Source of the DNA: Lachnospiraceae bacterium
Lineage (GTDB): Bacteria; Bacillota; Clostridia; Lachnospirales; Lachnospiraceae
Assembly: GCA_017938145.1 (NCBI GenBank)
Contig: JAGBCB010000040.1
Location: forward strand, 1 to 64,000
DNA length: 64,000 nt
Direction of reading: 5' to 3'
The position numbers and the translations under genes were made by a program. Shown here piece after piece: positions 1 to 11,055 of this stretch (the stretch's first letter is position 1; each line of letters opens with the position of its first letter). A model generated the notes under the pieces. It worked only from the letters and a program-made list of their open reading frames with translations. It had not been told where the DNA came from and made no database searches.

Positions 1-3000
1 CGTTGCTCCGTTTGCTGCAGCCGCAGTTATCTTTGTAACATTACCGTCGGTGTTATAGGTATACTTTGTTACGGTACCGTTTGGTACAGTTTCCTTTACT
101 ACACGGTCTTCACCATCATACTCATAGGTGGTTATCGCACCAAGGGCATCTGTTTCCTTGGCTACTCTTCCCCTGCTGTCATACTCGTACAGTGTTACCG
201 CACCGGAAGCGTCCTTAATCTCGGTCAGCAAGCCATCCTTGCGGTAGCTGTAAGCAGTGCTATTACCAAGTGCATTTGTAGTACTTGTAATGTTACCCTG
301 AGCATCATACTGCACCTTTGTTACGTTACCTTCTGCATCAGTGTAAGAAACAACCTCATCATAAGCATTATAGCAGTAAACCTCGCCCGTGAAAAGATTT
401 TTTATTACATTCCCTGCAATATCATATTGATACCTTGCTGTTACGCCCACAGGGTCTGTTATGGACGCAGTTCTGCCGTAAACATCATAGTCATACGTGG
501 TTACCGCTCCTAAAGCATCTGTTACGGTCAGCAGGCTTCCGTTGGTATCATAGGTATAGCTTTCCGTTACTCCCTCCGGCAGTACAACCTTTACCGGGTT
601 GCCTGCGGTATCATACACAATTTCACTGCTGTAGCCTGCCTGGTCGGTTGTGCGTACTAATCTGCCACAGGAATCATAATCATAGTACACGCTGTTGCCG
701 TTACAATCCGTTACCTTGATTACCTGGTCTGCTGCGTTGTACTCATAGGTGGTAACCCTGGTTTCTGTCTTGGTTTTTACGGTATAGGCCGCCTGTAAGG
801 TACGGTCTGCCATGCGGTCTGTTTCTAAACTTTCCGCTTCTGTAATTCCAGCAAACAGCAGCTCTGCCATGTAATCTAAGTCTGCATCATCAATTATTCC
901 GTTGCCGGTAATATCATACTTTTCCGTTTCATCATCTACGTAAACGTAGCACTGCTTTGCCAACAAGGTAAAATCCCTCAAATCGGTAATTCCGTCTTCG
1001 TTATAGTCCGGCAAGCATACTTCCATTAACAGTCCGGTGCTCTCCGAGAACAGGAAGCTTCCCGTGTAGTTTGTTACCGTGCTTTCCGGTGATACTGCCA
1101 CATAAGCGGTACCGGTTACGGCTTCCTTGGTCTTAAAGTAAACATAGCATAATGCCTGTTCCCCGTTACTGATGCTCTGGGTTGTGGTGAGCGTAATTTC
1201 ACCCGGTGTACTTGTATCTGCTGTTACTCCTGTTACCAGCGGCATGCAATAGGTTACTTCTAACAGGTCTGCCTCGTAAAGAACCGTTAATTCCATGCCC
1301 TTGACGGAAGTCTCGAAGTCTGTTGCAACCTCACACAAAAAGCTACTGTCAGGGTAAAAATAGTCCTTGTCCGCTTCTATGTATCTGATATGGGCAGAGT
1401 TATCCTGCATATCCAGAGTATCCACCTGCACCTCTTCTTCTGTTCGGATTAAGCGGTTAGCAGCATCATAGTAGTAGCGTACTTCGCCACCCTCCGGGGT
1501 TTCCACCCCGGTAAGGTTGCCGTTCAAGTCATAGGCATACTTATAGCCTTCCGATTCAGCCACAGAACCCATGTTGTTGTAGGTATACGCTGTGGTTACC
1601 GGGTCGGTTACTCCATTGACTACCTTCTGCTCCAGCAATCGGGAGTAAGCATCATAAACATACCAAACCTCACCGCCCGCACTGTCCTTCATGGCTGTAA
1701 CGTTACCTATGGCATCATAGGTGTAGGTTACGGTATCCCACTGCGTTGGTAAACTGATTTCTGTTACAAACTCAGCAGAAGATTCTGCAGTTAAAGTCTG
1801 CCCGTTTTTGTTATAGGTATAGCGGTAAATCTGATACCACACCTGACCGTTTTCTTCTTTCTTTGGAACCCTTACTTCCAACAGTCTTCCGTTAATGTCA
1901 TACTTATACAGGGTACTGTATCCCATGGCATCCGTTAAGGATATTAAATTTCCATCGGCATCATAGGCATACGTATACTGTGTATTTCCCAAAGTGTCGG
2001 TGACGCTTGTTACACGGCCTAAAGCGTCGTGAGTATAGTTTACAGACGCTCCCGTTTCGTGTCCGTTCGGGTAGGTTACGGTTATCACATTTCCTGCCGC
2101 ATCATAGCCATAGGTTGTAACACCGCCGTCCGGTGCGGTTACCTGAATCACGTTGCCTACGGTATCGTAGGTGTATCGATAGGCCTCCGTATCCTCCACG
2201 GTATATCCGGCGTATTCCGGTCTGGTCTGCGAAGTCACATTTCCTTCAATATCATAGCCCAGTTCGGAAATCACAGCTTCCGGTGTTTCGGAGGAAATCA
2301 ACCGGTCCATGGAATCATAGGCATAGGTATAGCCCTTTGCTTCTTCCATGGAAAGCCCTGCTTCCACTGCCTGTTCCACCTGCTCCGGCAGAATCAGCTT
2401 GGTTAAGTTACCGATGGCATCGTAAATAAACTTAGTTACACCGCCATCTGCCGCAGTAATAGCAGTTATCTGGTCGCTACTGCTGTATTCGTAAACAGTT
2501 TTTCCAAGGTCAGTCTCAATTGCAGTTCTTCTACCGATTGCATCATAGGTATAAGTAATGGTTCCGCCAAGGGCGTTGGTTGCACTCACCGGCTGATTGC
2601 TACTGCCATAAGCAAAGGTTGTCTTTCCGCCCTCCGCATCGGTTACAGCTACAACACGTCCCTTTGCATCATATTCGTAGGATACCTCTACCCAGGTGCC
2701 ATCCTCCTGAAGAGTCCGGGATTTCAACAGATTACCCTTTTCGTCAAATTCAAATCTTACTTCCGAACCAAGCGGAGAAATTGCCCCTGTCATGTTTTTA
2801 TGGGCATCATAAGCAAACGTATACTTGTTACCTAAAGCATCCGTTACCGAGGTCATATTTCTTTCTGTATCATAAGTGTAGGCCGTTACATAACCGCTTC
2901 TGGCACGAACTTTGATGCGGTTACCCTGCTCATCATATTCGAACTTTTCGTAGCTGCCGTCTGCGTAATTAATTCTGGATATGTACAGCTTTTCGTTATA

Positions 3001-5484
3001 CTGATAACGGGTAATGGCACCGCTGTCCAGCACAATAAAGGTATTTTCCTGCTTTTCATCATTGTAAATAAGCTTGTACTGACGTCCTGCTTCATCTGTC
3101 TGCTTTACTACTCTGCCCGTGGAGTCATACTCATTGGCAATGTAGGTATTTCCGTTACCATCCGTAATAGAGGTAAGACCATAGGAATCATAAGTAAAGC
3201 TCATGGTGCCGCAGGTCTCACCGGAAACCTTAATTAAGCATTTCCTGCTGTCATAGCTGTAATTTACTGTTCTTCCAAACGGGTCGGTAATTTTGCGTAG
3301 TCTGCCGTCGGAGCAGGTTACGGTAAGCTCTATGCCGTCTGCTCCCGTAATTTTAGACAGACTGTCCCCACTGTAAGTAAAAGTCACCTTATTTCCGTTT
3401 CGGTCAGTAATAGCAGTAAGCTTACCAGCTGGATTATACGTATAAGTCAGCCGATCTTCTGTCAAAAGACTCCATGTTCCGTCTGCATTTTTACTAAGGG
3501 TATCCTTACATGCATCCGGTGTCAGATAGTTATTTCCGTTCTTTTCAAACATCAAGGTCCGGCCATCGGAATAAACCACCTTGATGTTTCCGCCTGCCTC
3601 CCGGGTCAGATTGGTTTCATAACTGAATTTCCAACCAATGCCCAGCAGGCCTTCCCTTTTATCCACAGAATTATAGCTGCGGGTAATATCAAGGACCGCA
3701 TCTCCGATTCCCTGAAAATACATATCTGTTATTTCAAGATAAAAGCTACCGGTAACCATGTTGATCGGGTCACCGTTTGTAGTTGTATTCTGTGAATTTC
3801 CTAAAGCGCTTCCCGTGGACTGCTCATTAATTATCGGAGTTGGACTTGGTGTTGGGCTTGGAGTCGGACTTGGGCTCGGAGTTGGACTCGGGCTTGGAGT
3901 TGGCACTATGCCCGGTACAGGAATACGTGTTGGCGTTGGACTTGGTACCGGTGTCGGTACCGGCGTACATGTTTCCGTTGGGCTTGGTGTTGGCGTACTC
4001 GTTGCCGTTGGCTGAGGTGTACTTGTTGCTGTTGGCTGAGGTGTACTTGTTGCCGTTGGCTGAGGCGTACTTGTTGCCGTTGGTTTAGGTGTACTCGTCG
4101 CCGTCGGTTTTGGCGTACTTATTGCCGTTGGCTGAGGCGTACTCGTCGGACTTGCTGTCGGAGTCGGTGTTTCAACAGGCGGATAACACAGACTGCAATT
4201 TGGATTAGCCACATTTCTAACAGTACTATATGTTCCACATATCGCACAGCCATAGTTCATCACATGTCCATCATCGGTATGAAGGCCGTAAGTTGTTTTA
4301 TTAATACATACATGTGCCATGGTTTCCAGAATTCCATCCAACGCTTCTTCCATTGCTGTAAGCATCTCAGAAGAATAATTCCGATTCGTCAAATGGGTAT
4401 ATACCGGACTCATGTGATATTTTGCAGCCGCTTCTGCATTGATGACACCATCGGAAGTATTAATCAATAATGCCATAACCTGTTCCCTGCTTAAATCCGG
4501 TTCCAAATTCCGCAGCAGTACCGCTGCCGCTGCTGCCACCGGTGTTGCTACAGAACTGCCGTGAAAAGCTGTGCCTCCAAAGCTTTCGGAAAGGCGCACC
4601 CTCCCCGGTGCCAGTAAATCCGTTTCTCCATCTGCATAGGAAATTACCGGAAAACCATTCCCATCTGCTGCTCCTACTGACAGAGTTTCCGGATATGCTG
4701 CCGGATAAAGAATATTACCACCATCTTCGTTTCCTGCAGCAGCCAACACTACAATATCGTTCCAGGAAGCATACTGCAATGCCTCTCGCATAAAAGAAGA
4801 ATAGCTTTCACCACCCAGGCTCAATACCAGTACATCCATATTATTTTCTACTGCCCAGTAAATACCCTGAATCAGGCTACTGTAATATCCTGTTCCGTTT
4901 TCATCTAAAACTTCTACAGAGTAGAGTTCTGCTTGTGGTGCCAGCTCCGCCACAATAGCGGCTACTGCGGTTCCATGAAGTACATTGTCTTCTGACTGTA
5001 TCTGCTTTTGCTCTTCGTCCAAAAAGGATACTTGTCCCGCAAGAGAAATTCCCTCCACGCCAGTATCTAATACTGCTACCCGAACATTCTGTCCGTACCA
5101 GCCATTTTCATGCAATATGTCTACACCAGTGGCATCCAGAAGCATTCCTTCCTCTGCCACCAGTTCTCCCGTAGCATAAAGCGGTGCATCTTCTTCCACG
5201 GCCACCACCGACCGGTCATAATACAGACTGTACAAATCATACATTCCCGCATCCATTACCGAAAGTTCTTCTGTAATCAAAATTTCTTCTGCCGGCTCAT
5301 ACCTCATAAAGAAAGTCATACTTTCTTCTTCACCCGCAAACGTTGCGTCTCTCTTTACCATAATTCTTCGCGGCGTAAAGTCATCTAATACCGCTGCATA
5401 TGTTATGGCAGGTGTGGTCAATGACATTATAACTGCTGTAATCAGCATCCATGCCAACGCACGGGTTCCAACCTTTTTCCCCAT
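1..5484 (-). CDS. Secreted subtilisin-like (S8) protease fused to RHS/YD repeats, with embedded cohesin/dockerin-like module (partial, 3' end beyond window)
   Basis: The frame is open from an ATG at 5484 to the window edge (1,828 codons, no stop), so the C-terminus is missing. Order: signal peptide (about 1-30); S8 protease domain with the triad Asp140 ([10 protein letters not shown]), His170 (LHGTAVA) and Ser311 (GSSVATP); a CxxC...CxxC segment near 420; a Pro/Thr/Ser linker (about 438-551); a DUF6531-like entry motif ([11 protein letters not shown]); many YD repeats of the form YxYDxxGxxxxxTD; a cohesin-like then dockerin-like insert (about 1351-1543, Ca-loops DYNEDGITD and DITGNGIID); then more YD repeats. 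RHS proteins form beta-cage shells, often around a C-terminal toxin, which cannot be seen here. The protease might process the protein itself or a partner (inference). It begins 3 nt after the stop of the upstream Ig-like gene, so it is probably co-transcribed with it. Domain calls are confident; function is unknown. Confidence 0.88.
3836..4172 (-). repeat. Low-complexity repeat encoding the Pro/Thr/Ser linker
   Basis: Degenerate tandem units encode [16 protein letters not shown] and then SPTPSPTP-type repeats inside the subtilase-RHS gene. The complementary strand reads as false Gly-Val ORFs. Such tracts are prone to slippage and are typical of extracellular spacers, sometimes glycosylated. 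Confidence 0.85.
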
Positions 5485-5487
5485 AAT

Positions 5488-7647
5488 TTATTCCTCCCAC
5501 ATTTCTATTGCACTCCATTCAAAATGATATATCGGTTCCTGTGTTTTATCTTCACCCTTCCAGATGGATGTTTCCAGTTCATCTAACAAAAATCCCAGGG
5601 CATATCCGGTATGTACTTCATAACTATAAGTACATCCATCTGCCGGATTAATTGCCTTACCATAAAGCACAAGGCCGTCTGTGGTAATGTCATAATCAGT
5701 AATCGTATTCTTGGTTAGCGTAATTCCCGTACCCGGAATTCTAACCTCTATCTGCGCATCTATTGATGGTGGTAAAAATGTTACCGCAAGTTTCATATAA
5801 ATGCCCAGTTGTGGTAAATCCAGGAGCAGACTTCCACCCTGCCAGTTCAGGTCTGCATCAATTTGAAAAACTGCCGGATGCAACACAATATCCGGTGCGG
5901 TATAATAGCTGTTTTCAGTACAGGACATCTTGATTTCATACAGTCCGGTTTCCGGGTAAAAGTCATATTTTATAACTCCCCTCTCATTTGGGTGTAAAAT
6001 GGCTTCTTCCACATAAGTTCTGCTTCCGTCATTCTCTATTTTAAATAACTCTGCCCGCACTTCAGCCAAGGTAATATCACCCCAACAAAAATCCGGAAGT
6101 TCGCCCAATTCCAAATAAATCTGCAGCGGGGCACCACTCCATACATGATAATCCCCGCCATACAGCATCCATGCATGCTCGGGATGTATAGTAAAACCTG
6201 TGGTAGCTTCTGCACCCAGTAAATACCGTTCATCATCCTGTGGCACCCTTACGGTAAGTACCGCATCCTGTGGTGCCAGATAAAGTGAATGTGCCATCCA
6301 CACCATTCCGTCTTCATTGGAAGTTCTTGTTCCAATGCTTTCTCCGTTTATTAAAAACTCTACTTCCGCCTCCGGCAGTGGTTCACCACGATAGGTTACC
6401 AACGCAGAAAAGCTTGCCGTACCGGTATAGTGACTCTCTGAAGCATTGGCAATGACCTTTATGCTGTCGTAAATGGAAAATTCCACAGTTTCGCTATGGA
6501 TATTACCTGCCAAGTCTTCTGCCGTCACCGTCAGGACATGCTTTCCTTTTCCCGTAATTTCCGACGGATTCCAGACTTGTCCGTCCAACTGGTATGTGAT
6601 TGTTTTTATGCCGGAACAATTATCATAAATCTCCAACACCGGAGTAATTCTTCCTTCCACCAGTTGTCCCTGATATATGTTAGTAAATCGTATCTCCGGC
6701 TTTACGGAATCCTTTCGGTATGGGCCATATACTGCCGTTTCTTCGTTACCGGCCACATCCACTGCTCTTAAGTGCAGATACCAGATACCATCCTGCTCCA
6801 TGGAAAGAACTTCCTCGGCCATCAACGTATTCCAATTTCCGCTATTTTCCTCTGTAGAAGAAAATCCCCATTGTGCATACGAAATGCCAGAAACCGAGTC
6901 TGCAATGTCTGCTGTTATTTGTATATTTTCCTTCTTCCAATCCCGTTCCTTCACTGATACAGAGATATCCGGTTTGATAGTGTCTACTGAAATGCGTCTT
7001 ACTTCCTCTTTTTTATAACCATAGCCATCATCAGAAAAAGCTGTTATTGTGCTTATTCCATTTCCCACTTCAAACGGTTCGGTATATACAAGTTTACCTC
7101 CACCAAAATCATACCAGAGCTCTGCTGCATCTTTATCACTGATGCTAATCGTTACCGGACTAATATACCAGCCGTTATTCCCTTGAGTCCCTGACAAATG
7201 CACATACAACGGGTTCGGAAGTATCTTTACCGTAATATCCGGCACGACCACGCCTGTAAGCCACTCACCGGCTTCATTTGTCATTTGGAGTCCGGTCATA
7301 CTTACCGTTCCTGTGCCAATGCGTTTTCCTTCTACCCGCAGACGGATCCACAAACCATATCCGCTGTTACCTTTATTTGAGAGCAAAATTCGCATGTTTT
7401 CATTTTCTATTTTCATCGCCTGATAATTTAGATTATTTGATTGTTCTGTTTCTTTCAAGCATATAAATTCCTTTGTATATTTCAATTCCCCAAACACAGA
7501 ATATACATCCTCACTGCCTTCAAGATAAATTTCAGTTTCCTCCTCTTCGCCTCGATACACTTCGATTTCCTCTGCATAGCTCAGTGTTACCGATGCCATA
7601 CTAAGCCCCAAGAATAAAGTAACCAGAAATAACATTGCTTTTTTCAT
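5488..7647 (-). CDS. Secreted multi-domain Ig-like protein
   Basis: The chosen start (MKKAMLFLVTLFLG) opens a clear signal peptide ending near SYAEE. A purine-rich AGGAAGGGATGG stretch lies just upstream; the longer frame reaching 7737 would run into the promoter dyad. About 719 residues. The body is beta-rich with repeated Ig-like modules (for example APDITV-, KPDISVSV- and KPEIRFTN-type strand starts), a 'bacterial Ig' segment near 430-510 (ASFSALVTYRGEPLPEAEVEF) and a distinct C-terminal region rich in aromatic and acidic residues. No enzyme motif or cell-wall anchor was seen. It precedes the subtilase-RHS gene by 3 nt, so the two are probably translated from one message and may act together outside the cell (inference). 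Family not recognised beyond Ig-like folds. Confidence 0.82.
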   Translation of the reverse strand: MKKAMLFLVTLFLGLSMASVTLSYAEEIEVYRGEEEETEIYLEGSEDVYSVFGELKYTKEFICLKETEQSNNLNYQAMKIENENMRILLSNKGNSGYGLWIRLRVEGKRIGTGTVSMTGLQMTNEAGEWLTGVVVPDITVKILPNPLYVHLSGTQGNNGWYISPVTISISDKDAAELWYDFGGGKLVYTEPFEVGNGISTITAFSDDGYGYKKEEVRRISVDTIKPDISVSVKERDWKKENIQITADIADSVSGISYAQWGFSSTEENSGNWNTLMAEEVLSMEQDGIWYLHLRAVDVAGNEETAVYGPYRKDSVKPEIRFTNIYQGQLVEGRITPVLEIYDNCSGIKTITYQLDGQVWNPSEITGKGKHVLTVTAEDLAGNIHSETVEFSIYDSIKVIANASESHYTGTASFSALVTYRGEPLPEAEVEFLINGESIGTRTSNEDGMVWMAHSLYLAPQDAVLTVRVPQDDERYLLGAEATTGFTIHPEHAWMLYGGDYHVWSGAPLQIYLELGELPDFCWGDITLAEVRAELFKIENDGSRTYVEEAILHPNERGVIKYDFYPETGLYEIKMSCTENSYYTAPDIVLHPAVFQIDADLNWQGGSLLLDLPQLGIYMKLAVTFLPPSIDAQIEVRIPGTGITLTKNTITDYDITTDGLVLYGKAINPADGCTYSYEVHTGYALGFLLDELETSIWKGEDKTQEPIYHFEWSAIEMWEE

Positions 7648-7693
7648 AAGTTTCCATCCCTTCCTATTTATTGACAAAAGAATCCTTGCGTTT

Positions 7694-7722
7694 ATTTTAA
7701 AGTGACAAAAAACATCAGACCA
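7694..7722 (-). promoter_or_regulatory. Predicted promoter of the exoprotein operon
   Basis: On the minus strand, TGGTCT (7722-7717) and TAAAAT (7699-7694) are separated by 17 bp. The -35 is poor and lies inside an arm of the dyad, which suggests that transcription needs an activator bound there (inference). Confidence 0.45.
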
Positions 7723-7779
7723 TAACAAAAACGGCACTTTTTAGAAAATTTTGAAAAGCGTCGTTTTTGTTATGGTCTG
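7716..7779. promoter_or_regulatory. 18-bp perfect inverted repeat (candidate operator) between divergent genes
   Basis: The arm CAGACCATAACAAAAACG at 7716-7733 has an exact reverse complement at 7762-7779; the 28-bp centre is AT-rich and partly symmetric. Each arm contains the -35-like TGGTCT of the promoter that faces away from the dyad. The core octamer CCATAACA occurs again at 9862-9869, in front of the regulator genes. Long dyads over the -35 region are typical binding sites of XRE-TPR peptide-responsive regulators such as PlcR. Confidence 0.7.
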
Positions 7780-7801
7780 TATGAATATGCCATGCTACGA
7801 T
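7773..7801 (+). promoter_or_regulatory. Predicted promoter of the secreted-peptide gene
   Basis: TGGTCT (7773-7778), 17-bp spacer, then TACGAT (7796-7801) with an upstream TG (TGCTACGAT, extended -10 form). It mirrors the leftward promoter, with the same -35 hexamer and the same spacer length. Confidence 0.45.
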
Positions 7802-7837
7802 TTTTGTACAAAAATACTTTCAAAGGAGAAAATGTAT

Positions 7838-7996
7838 ATGAAGAACCTTATGAAAAAATTAATCGTATTTCTATTAGCCATTTTACTTTTTACTTCTGTT
7901 ACTCCTTACAAACCTGCGGGCACTTCAGATATCGGAATTACAGTAGCTGGTGACGAGGAAGATGTAATTGACCTTAGTACACTAATTCGTACCTAA
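7838..7996 (+). CDS. 52-residue secreted peptide, candidate signalling pheromone precursor
   Basis: The start ATG at 7838 lies 9 nt after AAAGGAG; an in-frame ATG at 7832 is only 3 nt from it, and the 7751 start would fall inside the dyad. The peptide has a basic N-terminus (MKNLMKKL), a hydrophobic core (IVFLLAILLFTSV) and a short polar tail ending in DLSTLIRT. This is the architecture of RRNPP pheromone precursors (Phr, PapR, NprX type): Sec signal plus a C-terminal signal sequence. It is divergent from the exoprotein operon, shares its dyad, and overlaps the 3' end of the regulator gene by 15 bp tail-to-tail. The role is inferred from context; a simple small secreted protein is the alternative. 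Confidence 0.6.
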   Translation: MKNLMKKLIVFLLAILLFTSVTPYKPAGTSDIGITVAGDEEDVIDLSTLIRT

Positions 7997-8920
7997 TGCT
8001 TCTGGATAACGTGATTTTAGTCTTTGCTCATACAAAGACTTTACACTGCCTTTCGCTTTGTTAATATAATATGCCTGCAAGAGACATTGATAGCATTCTG
8101 ATTCCTCAGCCTCTGTCAGTGTCTCTTTTTCTTTTATCTTCCAATAGTTCCAATGAATATCATAGTAAGCATGTTCGATATTTCTAAATTCCCCCATTTC
8201 TTTACAAAATAAAATAGTTTCATAATCCACCTTGATTGCATCCCTATGACAACACATACTTCCCAAGGCATCAGCCAGGGCAATGGACGAAATCACATAA
8301 TGCCGTACTCGTAATTCAGAGTTCAAATACTCTTGTTCAAGGCTTTTTCTCACACTGATAGCCAAGCGCTTTTGCTCTTCATACTTCTTCTGTGCTTTAT
8401 AAACATTGTTCAATGCAACTATCAACACTAATTCTTCATCGTGAAGAGGCCAGCCCTCCACCCCCTTTTCATTAAAGGTAAGTACCGTATACGCCAATGC
8501 CTCTTTTATTCTTTTTTCATACTCCTCCGCCGTAATAATGTGCTGTTGAAATTGCAATTCTGCGTGTTTGGCAATAATGTACTGCTTATTTCTCGGCACT
8601 TCTGTATCAATTTTGTCTTTAATGCTCTCCATCAATTCTTCTGCTTCACAAAACTGCTTCTGATTGATACTTCTCATTATTTCATTCATTCCAACCAAAT
8701 TTTCCATATCCGCAGTCTTCAGAATTCCCTGTCCTAGGCTTTCTTCCACACCCATACATCTTGTTAACCGACGGTAGGTTCTCTCCGTACCCATGTGCTT
8801 GCTTTCTTCCAAACGATATACCGTCATACCGGATGGACCTTCCACATCAAAATCGTCCCGTTTATTTCCCATAGCCGCTCTGCGCATTTTTAAAACTTTA
8901 CTGCATTGATAATACGCCAT
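7982..8920 (-). CDS. XRE-family HTH-TPR regulator (RRNPP-like), second of pair
   Basis: 312 residues, with GAGGAGG 7 nt before the ATG. The N-terminal region (about 8-60) keeps the late helices of an XRE HTH (MTVYRLEESK...YRRLTRCMGV) but its first helices are degenerate. The rest is all-helical with TPR-like spacing (QFCEAEELMESI, YEEQKRLAISVRKSLEQ, YQCLLQAYYINKAKG). The start overlaps the end of the upstream paralogue-like gene by 31 bp, indicating translational coupling. TPR domains of Rgg/PlcR/NprR proteins bind short imported peptides; here the ligand would plausibly come from the adjacent peptide gene (inference). The weak HTH may mean that this protein depends on its partner for DNA binding. 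Confidence 0.72.
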   Translation of the reverse strand: MAYYQCSKVLKMRRAAMGNKRDDFDVEGPSGMTVYRLEESKHMGTERTYRRLTRCMGVEESLGQGILKTADMENLVGMNEIMRSINQKQFCEAEELMESIKDKIDTEVPRNKQYIIAKHAELQFQQHIITAEEYEKRIKEALAYTVLTFNEKGVEGWPLHDEELVLIVALNNVYKAQKKYEEQKRLAISVRKSLEQEYLNSELRVRHYVISSIALADALGSMCCHRDAIKVDYETILFCKEMGEFRNIEHAYYDIHWNYWKIKEKETLTEAEESECYQCLLQAYYINKAKGSVKSLYEQRLKSRYPEALGTN

Positions 8921-9807
8921 CCCAATTCCTCCTCACAGTACTTTTCCACAGTTTCTGCCAATTTTTCTTCTCCAATTGCTTTTCCTACATAGTAACTTGT
9001 TAAAAAATCCCGATAAATTTCTTCTTTACATTTTGTATCTGATTTTGCGGCACACTTTGCTTTTAAGAAAAGGAAAGCAGTCATAAGGAATTCTTTGCTC
9101 CCCTTGTTTAAAGCACAAAGACAGGATTCGCACCGTTTTTCTGCTTCTGTATACTTCCCTTCGAAAAATAACGTCTCTGCCAACTGATATCCTGTTTTGA
9201 AATAACAGTTCGGATAAATCTGTCCCGAAAACATAAATTTTTCTATCCACTGGAGCATTTCTTCCATTTCCTGTCGTTGCATTGGCTGCAGGCAGCGCCG
9301 ATAGCCTAAATACATATCTAGTTCTTCCTCTGAAATAACCTTATTCTCCGGCTCTTCCATTGTCAGCAGAAACGCTTCTCTATACCATTTTCCTGCCTGT
9401 TCCGTTTGAGCAGATTCCAGCAATTGACCACGCTTCCAGAAAACGTACTGTCTTTCCAATACATCCATCTCTACATTCTGTTCATATTGCAGCAGTAATA
9501 GTTCTGCCTCGTCCCACTGCTGTAGTTCTATACAACGTTCCAAAGAAAAACGTAGCTCCTTCCGAAAAAAATCCTGATCTGATAAGGTTCGTTCCAACAA
9601 TCGATATTGAAAATGTACTCTAGAAAACAACCTTTCCACTAATAATTCATTAGGCATACCTTTCCCTTTTTCTATTCTCGCAAACACTTCTTTGGTACAT
9701 AACCCCGAAAACAATTCTGTCTGCTTAATCTTCTTCTTTTTTCGAAGAGCACGAAGCAAAGCCCCCACTTCAACTAATTCACTTTTGATAATTTCATTCC
9801 GACTCAA
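8890..9807 (-). CDS. XRE-family HTH-TPR regulator (RRNPP-like), first of pair
   Basis: 305 residues from a TTG start, 8 nt after GGGG; no ATG lies nearby in frame. HTH about residues 13-70: LLRALRKKKKIKQTELFSGL, then VFARIEKGKGMPNELLVERLF, a canonical XRE pattern. A helical repeat region follows (CIELQQWDEAELLLLQYEQN, KYTEAEKRCESCLCAL), as in peptide-binding TPR domains. It is the promoter-proximal gene of a two-regulator operon and overlaps the next gene. The half-site CCATAACA in its own promoter suggests autoregulation. Peptide sensing is inferred from architecture and neighbours. Confidence 0.75.
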   Translation of the reverse strand: MSRNEIIKSELVEVGALLRALRKKKKIKQTELFSGLCTKEVFARIEKGKGMPNELLVERLFSRVHFQYRLLERTLSDQDFFRKELRFSLERCIELQQWDEAELLLLQYEQNVEMDVLERQYVFWKRGQLLESAQTEQAGKWYREAFLLTMEEPENKVISEEELDMYLGYRRCLQPMQRQEMEEMLQWIEKFMFSGQIYPNCYFKTGYQLAETLFFEGKYTEAEKRCESCLCALNKGSKEFLMTAFLFLKAKCAAKSDTKCKEEIYRDFLTSYYVGKAIGEEKLAETVEKYCEEELGWRIINAVKF

Positions 9808-9840
9808 TACAAATTCCCCTTAGTTCGTATTAATTGAATT

Positions 9841-9869
9841 ATTATAACATTGTTTCATCATCCATAACA
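9841..9869 (-). promoter_or_regulatory. Predicted promoter of the regulator pair with CCATAACA half-site
   Basis: Minus-strand TATAAT (9846-9841) and TGTTAT (9869-9864) with a 17-bp spacer. The octamer CCATAACA at 9862-9869, shared with both arms of the exoprotein dyad, overlaps the -35. Confidence 0.5.
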
Positions 9870-9890
9870 GATACCAAAGTAGTCAAATTC

Positions 9891-9922
9891 AAAAAAGGCT
9901 GGAGCATCAATCTTCTCCGGCC
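9891..9922 (-). terminator. Rho-independent terminator
   Basis: Minus-strand stem GGCCGGAG / CTCCAGCC (9922-9915 with 9904-9897), followed by six T. It ends the membrane-anchored protein gene (and perhaps lacZ upstream of it). Confidence 0.8.
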
Positions 9923-9932
9923 TTTCTTTTCT

Positions 9933-11009
9933 TTACTTCAGCAACCCCATCCACCGAAACATCAATTTGGCAATGTTTTTGCTCATCTCTGCCTTTAATG
10001 CGGCTTCCTCTTCTTCTGTCATGGAAAGTACATTTAACTGCTTTCCCACAAGTGGTGTAATCTCATTTTGTGCTGCCTTTAAATAGCCCTTTACGCCCCA
10101 TTCTTTCTGATTTGCCAAGACCTCCAGTGAAAACTCTCCGTTCCCGGAAGGAAGCATGGTAAAACTGCCCGGGCAGGTAATGGTTATACCATCTTCTTCT
10201 ATCTCCGATGTCCATTGGGCACGGATGCTGACCATCCTCTCTTTGCATACATGGAAAGTCAGTGACACCTTACCGGTAAGGTTTGGTGCCACACCGGCTT
10301 TTACACCATAGGCACTGAATTCTTCCAACATAGCACCAATAAACCCTTTCACATTTTCGGCAGGAAGCTCTGCCTTGTACACCCGGCAATTGTATCGCAC
10401 ACCGTTAATACGGAGTTCCTCTTTTTTACCCTTCTTTATTTCGGTATCTGCCAGATACTCCTCGTAAGCAGTACCCAGCCCCTCTAAGAGTTCTCCTGCC
10501 TGTTCACTGTCAATGAAATCCTCTGTAATATCTTCTGCATCATATGTTCCCATCAGGACTGCGCTGAAAAGCTTTGGCACCGATACCTGCCACCGTTCCT
10601 TATCTGCATAGGCATTCGCCGTAAGCAGTTTATTGTCTGAAACCAAAAGATCCAACGTAGCGTTTACTTCCCGCTCCGGATTAGACTTGGCAAATAACCG
10701 TAATGTTACATCCGCAAGAGACATACCTCCACCGATTCCCAATGTATCCAGGGATATTTCCTGTCCGGACACTTCCAAGGAAAGCTCGCCGCCCTGCTCC
10801 TGCACCTCTTCCAACAGCTCGGAACTGTCCGTAACAAAGGTATTGATGAGGGCAACCCCAACTGCCGTTTTTGCTCCGGTGAGGCCGCCCGCATAGGCAA
10901 TTCCTACAGTGCCGCAGCCAAGCAGGGCTACTATGGCACCCCCTGTTGCTACCTTTGCTGCCATTGAAGATGCCAGCTTATTCTTAAGTTTTGTAAAGAA
11001 ACCCATCAT
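9933..11009 (-). CDS. Membrane-anchored extracellular protein of unknown function
   Basis: About 358 residues. The start at ATG 11009 (or 11006) follows AAAGGAG by 5 (or 8) nt. A basic N-terminus (FFTKLKNKLASSMAAK) is followed by one hydrophobic helix (VATGGAIVALLGCGTVGIAYAGG), probably an uncleaved anchor, and then a soluble mixed alpha/beta domain with no recognised motif. The C-terminus is acidic then basic. It lies 46 nt after the lacZ stop and may be co-transcribed with it. I do not recognise the family. Confidence 0.75.
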   Translation of the reverse strand: MMGFFTKLKNKLASSMAAKVATGGAIVALLGCGTVGIAYAGGLTGAKTAVGVALINTFVTDSSELLEEVQEQGGELSLEVSGQEISLDTLGIGGGMSLADVTLRLFAKSNPEREVNATLDLLVSDNKLLTANAYADKERWQVSVPKLFSAVLMGTYDAEDITEDFIDSEQAGELLEGLGTAYEEYLADTEIKKGKKEELRINGVRYNCRVYKAELPAENVKGFIGAMLEEFSAYGVKAGVAPNLTGKVSLTFHVCKERMVSIRAQWTSEIEEDGITITCPGSFTMLPSGNGEFSLEVLANQKEWGVKGYLKAAQNEITPLVGKQLNVLSMTEEEEAALKAEMSKNIAKLMFRWMGLLK

Positions 11010-11055
11010 TCCAGCTCCTTTCACAATCAAGGCAAAACCAAACAGCCGTAACAGA

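Follow-up and report, generated by a model that had tools for sequence, protein, structure and literature searches.

A candidate peptide-pheromone circuit with paired or fused PlcR-like regulators in Lachnospiraceae

Receptors of the RNPP type are peptide sensors, and RRNPP receptors are pictured as homodimers. The PlcR-PapR system of the Bacillus cereus group comprises a receptor with an XRE helix-turn-helix (HTH) and tetratricopeptide repeats (TPR), a neighbouring gene for a secreted peptide precursor, papR, which follows plcR in the same direction, and targets encoding secreted proteins, and the PlcR box is 16 bp in size. In streptococci, separate loci encode the two related receptors Rgg2 and Rgg3, of which one activates and the other represses shared promoters, and a short hydrophobic peptide (SHP) belongs to each. 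SHPs lack a Sec signal, and their export involves PptAB (PMC7564271). Here we analysed a locus in a 64,000-nucleotide stretch of DNA (the window), which forms part of a 90,913-base contig (JAGBCB010000040.1) of the Lachnospiraceae bacterium assembly GCA_017938145.1. A sequence-only reading of the window had pointed to a gene for a signal-sequence peptide, tail-to-tail with a pair of overlapping regulator genes (R1 and R2) and divergent from two exoprotein genes with a shared dyad, and this arrangement is borne out by the open reading frames (ORFs) and dyad coordinates (Table 1). The locus probably represents a pheromone circuit of the RRNPP/PlcR-like kind, the receptor of which would be an R1-R2 heterodimer, or a fusion of the two, on a long operator.

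The locus resembles the PlcR-PapR system in its regulators with TPR and a putative XRE HTH, its neighbouring precursor of a predicted secreted peptide and its secreted-protein targets, and PlcR is furthermore the best fold match of both R1 and R2. It differs, however, in its receptor, which appears as a pair or fusion, and in its peptide gene, which converges on R2. The palindromes of the loci compared here are also longer than a PlcR box: their arms measure ~19 bp and their spans range from 38 to 71 bp, most of them from 42 to 56 bp. The Rgg2/Rgg3-SHP systems (PMC3150281) likewise combine a pair of related receptors with short peptides as signals, but here the regulators, coupled or fused, are associated with a single peptide, which has a Sec-like signal and an acidic tail; unlike SHPs, the precursors are 40-72 amino acids in length, with signal-like N-termini and mostly acidic tails.

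The systems catalogued by RRNPP_Detector (PMC10075063) comprise an adjacent propeptide gene, a TPR receptor and often a neighbouring target operon, all of which are paralleled here. The default filter of this tool retains receptors of 250-500 amino acids, a range without mechanistic necessity; the R1 and R2 proteins of the window fall inside this range, whereas the fused relatives, at 504-701 amino acids, fall outside it. In the Qss/Qsr systems of Clostridium (PMC7206700, PMC7376267), a small peptide similarly accompanies a regulator of the RRNPP type, but the accessible portions of these sources describe one regulator per system (PMC7206700) and mention neither tandem nor fused receptors. A search of accessible full-text literature, subscription journals and preprints aside, turned up among the matches listed no account of RRNPP-type signalling by members of the Lachnospiraceae and none of an RRNPP receptor in fused form. 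The string 'Lachnospir' is absent from the main text of the RRNPP survey papers examined, including PMC10075063. Passages were located by term in PMC10075063, PMC9765709, PMC12700828, PMC7876071 and PMC10626739, and PMC10626739, in the passage located, places RRNPP receptors under Streptococcus only. Gut quorum-sensing papers in which PlcR and Lachnospiraceae are both mentioned draw no link between the two in the passages located.

Linkage of peptide and regulator genes

The genome harboring the window, which is 78% complete, groups in one genus with three other genomes, and these carry R2 relatives at 45, 48 and 64% identity. Each relative has an R1 gene upstream (broken in one genome) and, tail-to-tail with it, a gene for a peptide with signal sequence; a palindrome is present as well, the arm of which again reads ATAACAAAA. 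The family search covered, besides this genome, genomes that are at least 90% complete, scoring no more than five candidates in each, and a profile search at an E-value of 1e-12 identified relatives in 54 of the 396 Lachnospiraceae genomes. In a profile search of the class, relatives are present in 10/293 genomes, six of them outside the Lachnospiraceae. Viral contigs, searched with single-sequence or narrow queries, yielded no relatives, and among the plasmids searched R2 had no match and a fused relative one weak HTH match only. The genome of the window itself encodes at least five such systems, each with a separate peptide.

Ninety-nine loci, hand-chosen mainly from the higher-scoring places of the profile searches, were taken for comparison. 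Peptide genes were called by a strict rule covering convergent peptides only (35-80 amino acids, Shine-Dalgarno sequence, ATG or GTG start, hydrophobic N-terminus, stop near the regulator stop), with export judged solely by hydrophobicity. By this rule, a small, putatively exported propeptide adjoins 13 of the 15 tandem pairs and 33 of the 55 fused regulators, compared to 5/394 other genes in the same loci. The sequence-only reading had proposed co-occurrence in related genomes as a check on its peptide-pheromone interpretation, and these linkage counts, together with the palindromes described below, support that interpretation. Among the loci taken after the idea was formed, a peptide is found beside 2/4 pairs and 31/51 fusions. 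A strict-rule peptide also adjoins eight of the 32 regulators automatically classed as single. Three of the regulators so classed were found on re-inspection to be pairs (L064, with a broken R1, L072 and L081), leaving a peptide beside 5/29 lone regulators, most of which are thus without one. Some other automatic singles, namely L097 and L159, resemble broken fusions. When the criteria were relaxed, some ORF could be identified in 19 of the 24 pair or fused loci lacking a strict-rule peptide, and five of these, all fused (L078, L117, L119, L143 and L153), were judged to contain plausible peptides.

Among the pairs and fusions that have a peptide, the peptide and regulator stops lie within 20 nt of each other in 37/46; the two genes of the window overlap at their ends by 15 nt. 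The tails past residue 22 are net acidic in 53/58 precursors (91%). A core motif is present in 18/58 precursors, compared to 3.0 in shuffled sequences, but this pattern was picked post hoc and is not used as support. The peptide of the window has both the signal-like N-terminus and the acidic tail. Comparison with its close relative in L064 shows 14 identical, 15 synonymous and 23 residue-changing codons, with 20, 14 and 30 differences at codon positions one, two and three, respectively; third positions vary the most, which fits a coding sequence.

The R1 gene is split into separate reading frames at L064:4697-5617 (the same gene in L012), which may reflect an assembly error or decay, and the R2, peptide and palindrome there look intact. 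At L127:2152-6348, two fused regulators follow one another, with a strict-rule peptide beside the second only.

R1 and R2 as probable parts of one receptor

In five relatives of ~600 amino acids, the R1 and R2 profiles best fit different halves, R1-like followed by R2-like, and 57 regulators in the sample exceed 500 amino acids. In a tree of 176 sequences, the N-terminal halves group with R1 and the C-terminal halves with R2, with 5/144 misplaced and a support of 0.94 for the main clade of C-terminal halves and R2. The R1 and R2 sequences are located among several groups of halves in this tree, suggesting that fusion or splitting probably occurred more than once. In the fused regulators of L149, L150 and L155, the halves seem to be swapped, the N-terminal half falling near lone regulators and the C-terminal half near R1. 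Among the tandem pairs, the R1 and R2 genes overlap in 13/15 cases, by exactly 19 nt in seven of them, as counted with script-chosen starts, and by 31 nt in the window. Overlap and fusion are what would be expected of subunits made and used together and, because many relatives fuse R1 and R2, these are better read as a single two-part receptor than as two receptors. The view in the sequence-only reading that a two-receptor arrangement would be unusual is not upheld, as regulators of this family normally occur in pairs.

PlcR is the top match of the R1 and R2 structure models by both Foldseek and VIA-align, and Rap and NprR also rank high in the lists. A sequence search of the PDB matched R1 to the HTH regions of Rgg-like proteins, the R1 profile reaching those of Lmo0325, MutR and PrgX, and returned nothing relevant for R2. 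An HTH match is present in 2/6 R2 relatives. The Pfam domain RNPP_C scored above cut-off in one of the two fused relatives scanned (L079), which also contains two HTH_3 matches. The scores of other TPR proteins come close to that of PlcR, such that the fold alone is no proof. A weak point is that the Pfam HTH match in R1 of the window is below cut-off and that the Pfam scan of R2 of the window detected no HTH. Against the reading of R1 and R2 as subunits used together, two loci, L074 and L096, apparently get by with a single regulator plus a long palindrome.

These two loci, which also have a peptide, speak for an alternative in which R1 and R2 are separate homodimeric receptors for one peptide, one activating and the other repressing shared promoters in the manner of Rgg2 and Rgg3, and the full PlcR-like fold predicted for each of R1 and R2 agrees with this. 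Such a division is, however, unlikely in view of the 57 regulators in which the halves are fused, the order of the halves, which is fixed in most of the tree, the tight overlap of the two genes and the single peptide gene that the strict rule recovers per pair.

Divergent target genes and the palindromic candidate operator

The genes divergent from the peptide gene vary between loci, and their products frequently have a hydrophobic N-terminus. A domain scan covered 30 divergent proteins, chosen from those listed. An immunoglobulin (Ig)-like protein and a subtilase-RHS protein are the divergent targets in both the window and L064, while a subtilase is found in L086, a VWA protein in L124 and a lectin-like protein in L080; no strong palindrome is present in L080 and L086. 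Further products include an ABC transporter, an MFS protein and a glycosyltransferase. A ThiF-family enzyme (L111:1982-3103) and a radical SAM/SPASM enzyme (L122:5383-7197) are encoded opposite fused-receptor systems, suggesting that some of these systems may control the synthesis of modified peptides. Two of the 30 scanned proteins are of the EAL type (L067:4305-5168 and L079:6683-7459), a possible link to cyclic-di-GMP signalling.

The modification enzymes and transporters among the targets, together with the diversity of the peptide tails, could be taken to mean that the small secreted peptide is itself the regulated product, for example a bacteriocin or surface peptide, and that the regulators answer another ligand. 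We consider this quite improbable, as the position of the peptide relative to the regulators is constant even though each locus has different divergent targets, the window locus has no dedicated maturation or immunity gene, and the RNPP-type fold predicted for the regulators is that of receptors which sense peptides.

The 18-bp dyad that had been noticed between the divergent promoters of the window proved to be the exact outer part (7716-7733 and 7762-7779) of two longer arms of 31 nt each (7716-7746 and 7749-7779), which are 87% complementary and extend over 64 bp overall. Across the loci, 28 of the 54 peptide genes have a palindrome with a score of at least 15 in the 350 nt upstream, compared to 17/359 other upstream regions and 0/54 shuffled sequences. 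For palindromes with a score of at least 12 and a suitable start-codon distance, -10-like boxes were sought 10-34 nt outside each edge, and the best box is found at the same offset on both sides in 16/30 (expected: 3.7; 0/5000 permutations), as expected of one operator serving two promoters. When anchored at this offset, many arms approximate TTTCCAAAAACGTCATGG, and ~20 nt separate the end of the outer box from the -10. Across 27 of these palindromes, agreement between the two arms is at least 81% at each position over 19 bp, and position 12 of the arm is almost without base preference; with this dip in information, each arm appears as if it held two boxes. The outer-to-outer spans of these palindromes are 42-47 bp in 14/27 and 51-56 bp in 10/27, with those of 38, 65 and 71 bp lying outside. 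The two groups are separated by approximately one helical turn (p of 0.0007 in a jitter test, and of 0.002 when a range of periods is considered, with related loci not being independent). In a comparison aimed at activation versus repression, -35 matches averaged 2.96 on 48 promoter sides and 2.97 at 306 ordinary genes.

It is highly improbable that the palindrome acts as an RNA hairpin or transcription terminator, with the peptide-regulator linkage a shared module without signalling, for although some of the strong palindromes in ordinary upstream regions are perhaps terminators, the palindromes here lie between divergent genes, in 16/30 at equal distances from the -10-like boxes on both sides, their spans follow a helical-turn pattern, and in the window neither an Rfam match (7000-10200) nor a terminator-like site (7500-10000) was found.

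The sequence-only reading had also placed a dyad half-site in the promoter of the regulators. The half-site CCATAACA indeed exists before R1 (9862-9869), and this 8-mer occurs seven times in the window (expected: 2.8; 1/100 shuffles reached seven). A role as an operator element was, however, rejected: in seven relatives, L064 not being counted, the corresponding 8-mer of each relative's own dyad has no exact match upstream of R1, with a one-mismatch match in two, and the next TATAAT in the window is 15 nt away and not about 20. The half-site is thus probably a chance occurrence. A wider regulon sought with the 18-mer arm was likewise rejected, as the genome of the window has no further match at up to two mismatches and six at three mismatches, no more than a reversed control.

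Table 1. Coordinates of the candidate pheromone locus in the window
Feature	Position	Strand	Basis and remarks
Subtilase-RHS exoprotein (Peptidase_S8 and RHS repeats), second target gene	1..5484	-	Cut by contig start
Secreted Ig-like protein, 719 aa (Big_13/Big_7), first gene of divergent target operon	5488..7647	-	
-10-like box TAAAAT, exoprotein promoter	7694..7699	-	16 nt outside dyad
Palindromic candidate operator between divergent promoters	7716..7779	.	Dyad analysis and class-wide palindrome statistics
-10-like box TACGAT, peptide promoter	7796..7801	+	16 nt outside dyad
Peptide precursor, 52 aa, candidate pheromone	7838..7996	+	ORF from the ATG (7838) to the end of the stop codon (7996), Shine-Dalgarno AAGGAGA just 5', codon pattern compared with L064, same place in relatives
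R2, TPR regulator, 312 aa, orthologous to C-half of fused receptors	7982..8920	-	Alignment, tree, PlcR top fold match; HTH divergent, unseen by Pfam
R1, XRE-TPR regulator, 305 aa, orthologous to N-half of fused receptors	8890..9807	-	Alignment, tree, PlcR top fold match, HTH region of Lmo0325/MutR/PrgX; TTG start codon

The gene directly upstream of R1 (9933-11030, reverse strand) encodes a product with a hydrophobic N-terminal segment and without a Pfam or NCBIfam match.

Proposed circuit and its significance

In the proposed RRNPP/PlcR-like circuit, the 52-residue precursor would be exported by means of its signal sequence and subsequently trimmed, and a short piece of the acidic tail would be imported by an oligopeptide permease. 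The genome of the window encodes three SBP_bac_5 oligopeptide-binding reading frames and one M50 protease. The imported peptide, acting as the signal, would bind in the TPR grooves of an R1-R2 heterodimer, and the loaded receptor would sit on the palindromic candidate operator, the arms of which each resemble two boxes. The bound receptor would then drive both promoters, switching the genes on rather than off, such that the peptide would amplify its own production and the Ig-like and subtilase-RHS exoproteins would be turned on at high density.

A broader proposal, the prospects of which we judge to be evenly balanced, is that the locus represents a widespread and undescribed class of obligate two-part receptors. 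In this class, two subunits resembling PlcR, whether made from coupled genes or as a head-to-tail fusion, would together read one secreted peptide and bind, as a four-headed complex, a palindrome of ~43 or ~53 bp which drives two divergent promoters. Several private channels of this kind would then coexist in a single gut Lachnospiraceae genome, at least five of them in that of the window.

The fused systems may have escaped RRNPP_Detector, one of the main tools for finding such systems, because their receptor length is beyond its default filter. A fused or heterodimeric receptor would, if true, alter the picture of RRNPP receptors as homodimers and permit an asymmetric or AND-type read-out. 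The Lachnospiraceae form a large part of the gut flora and, with precursor, receptor, operator and target located side by side, the putative peptide language of these bacteria becomes directly testable.
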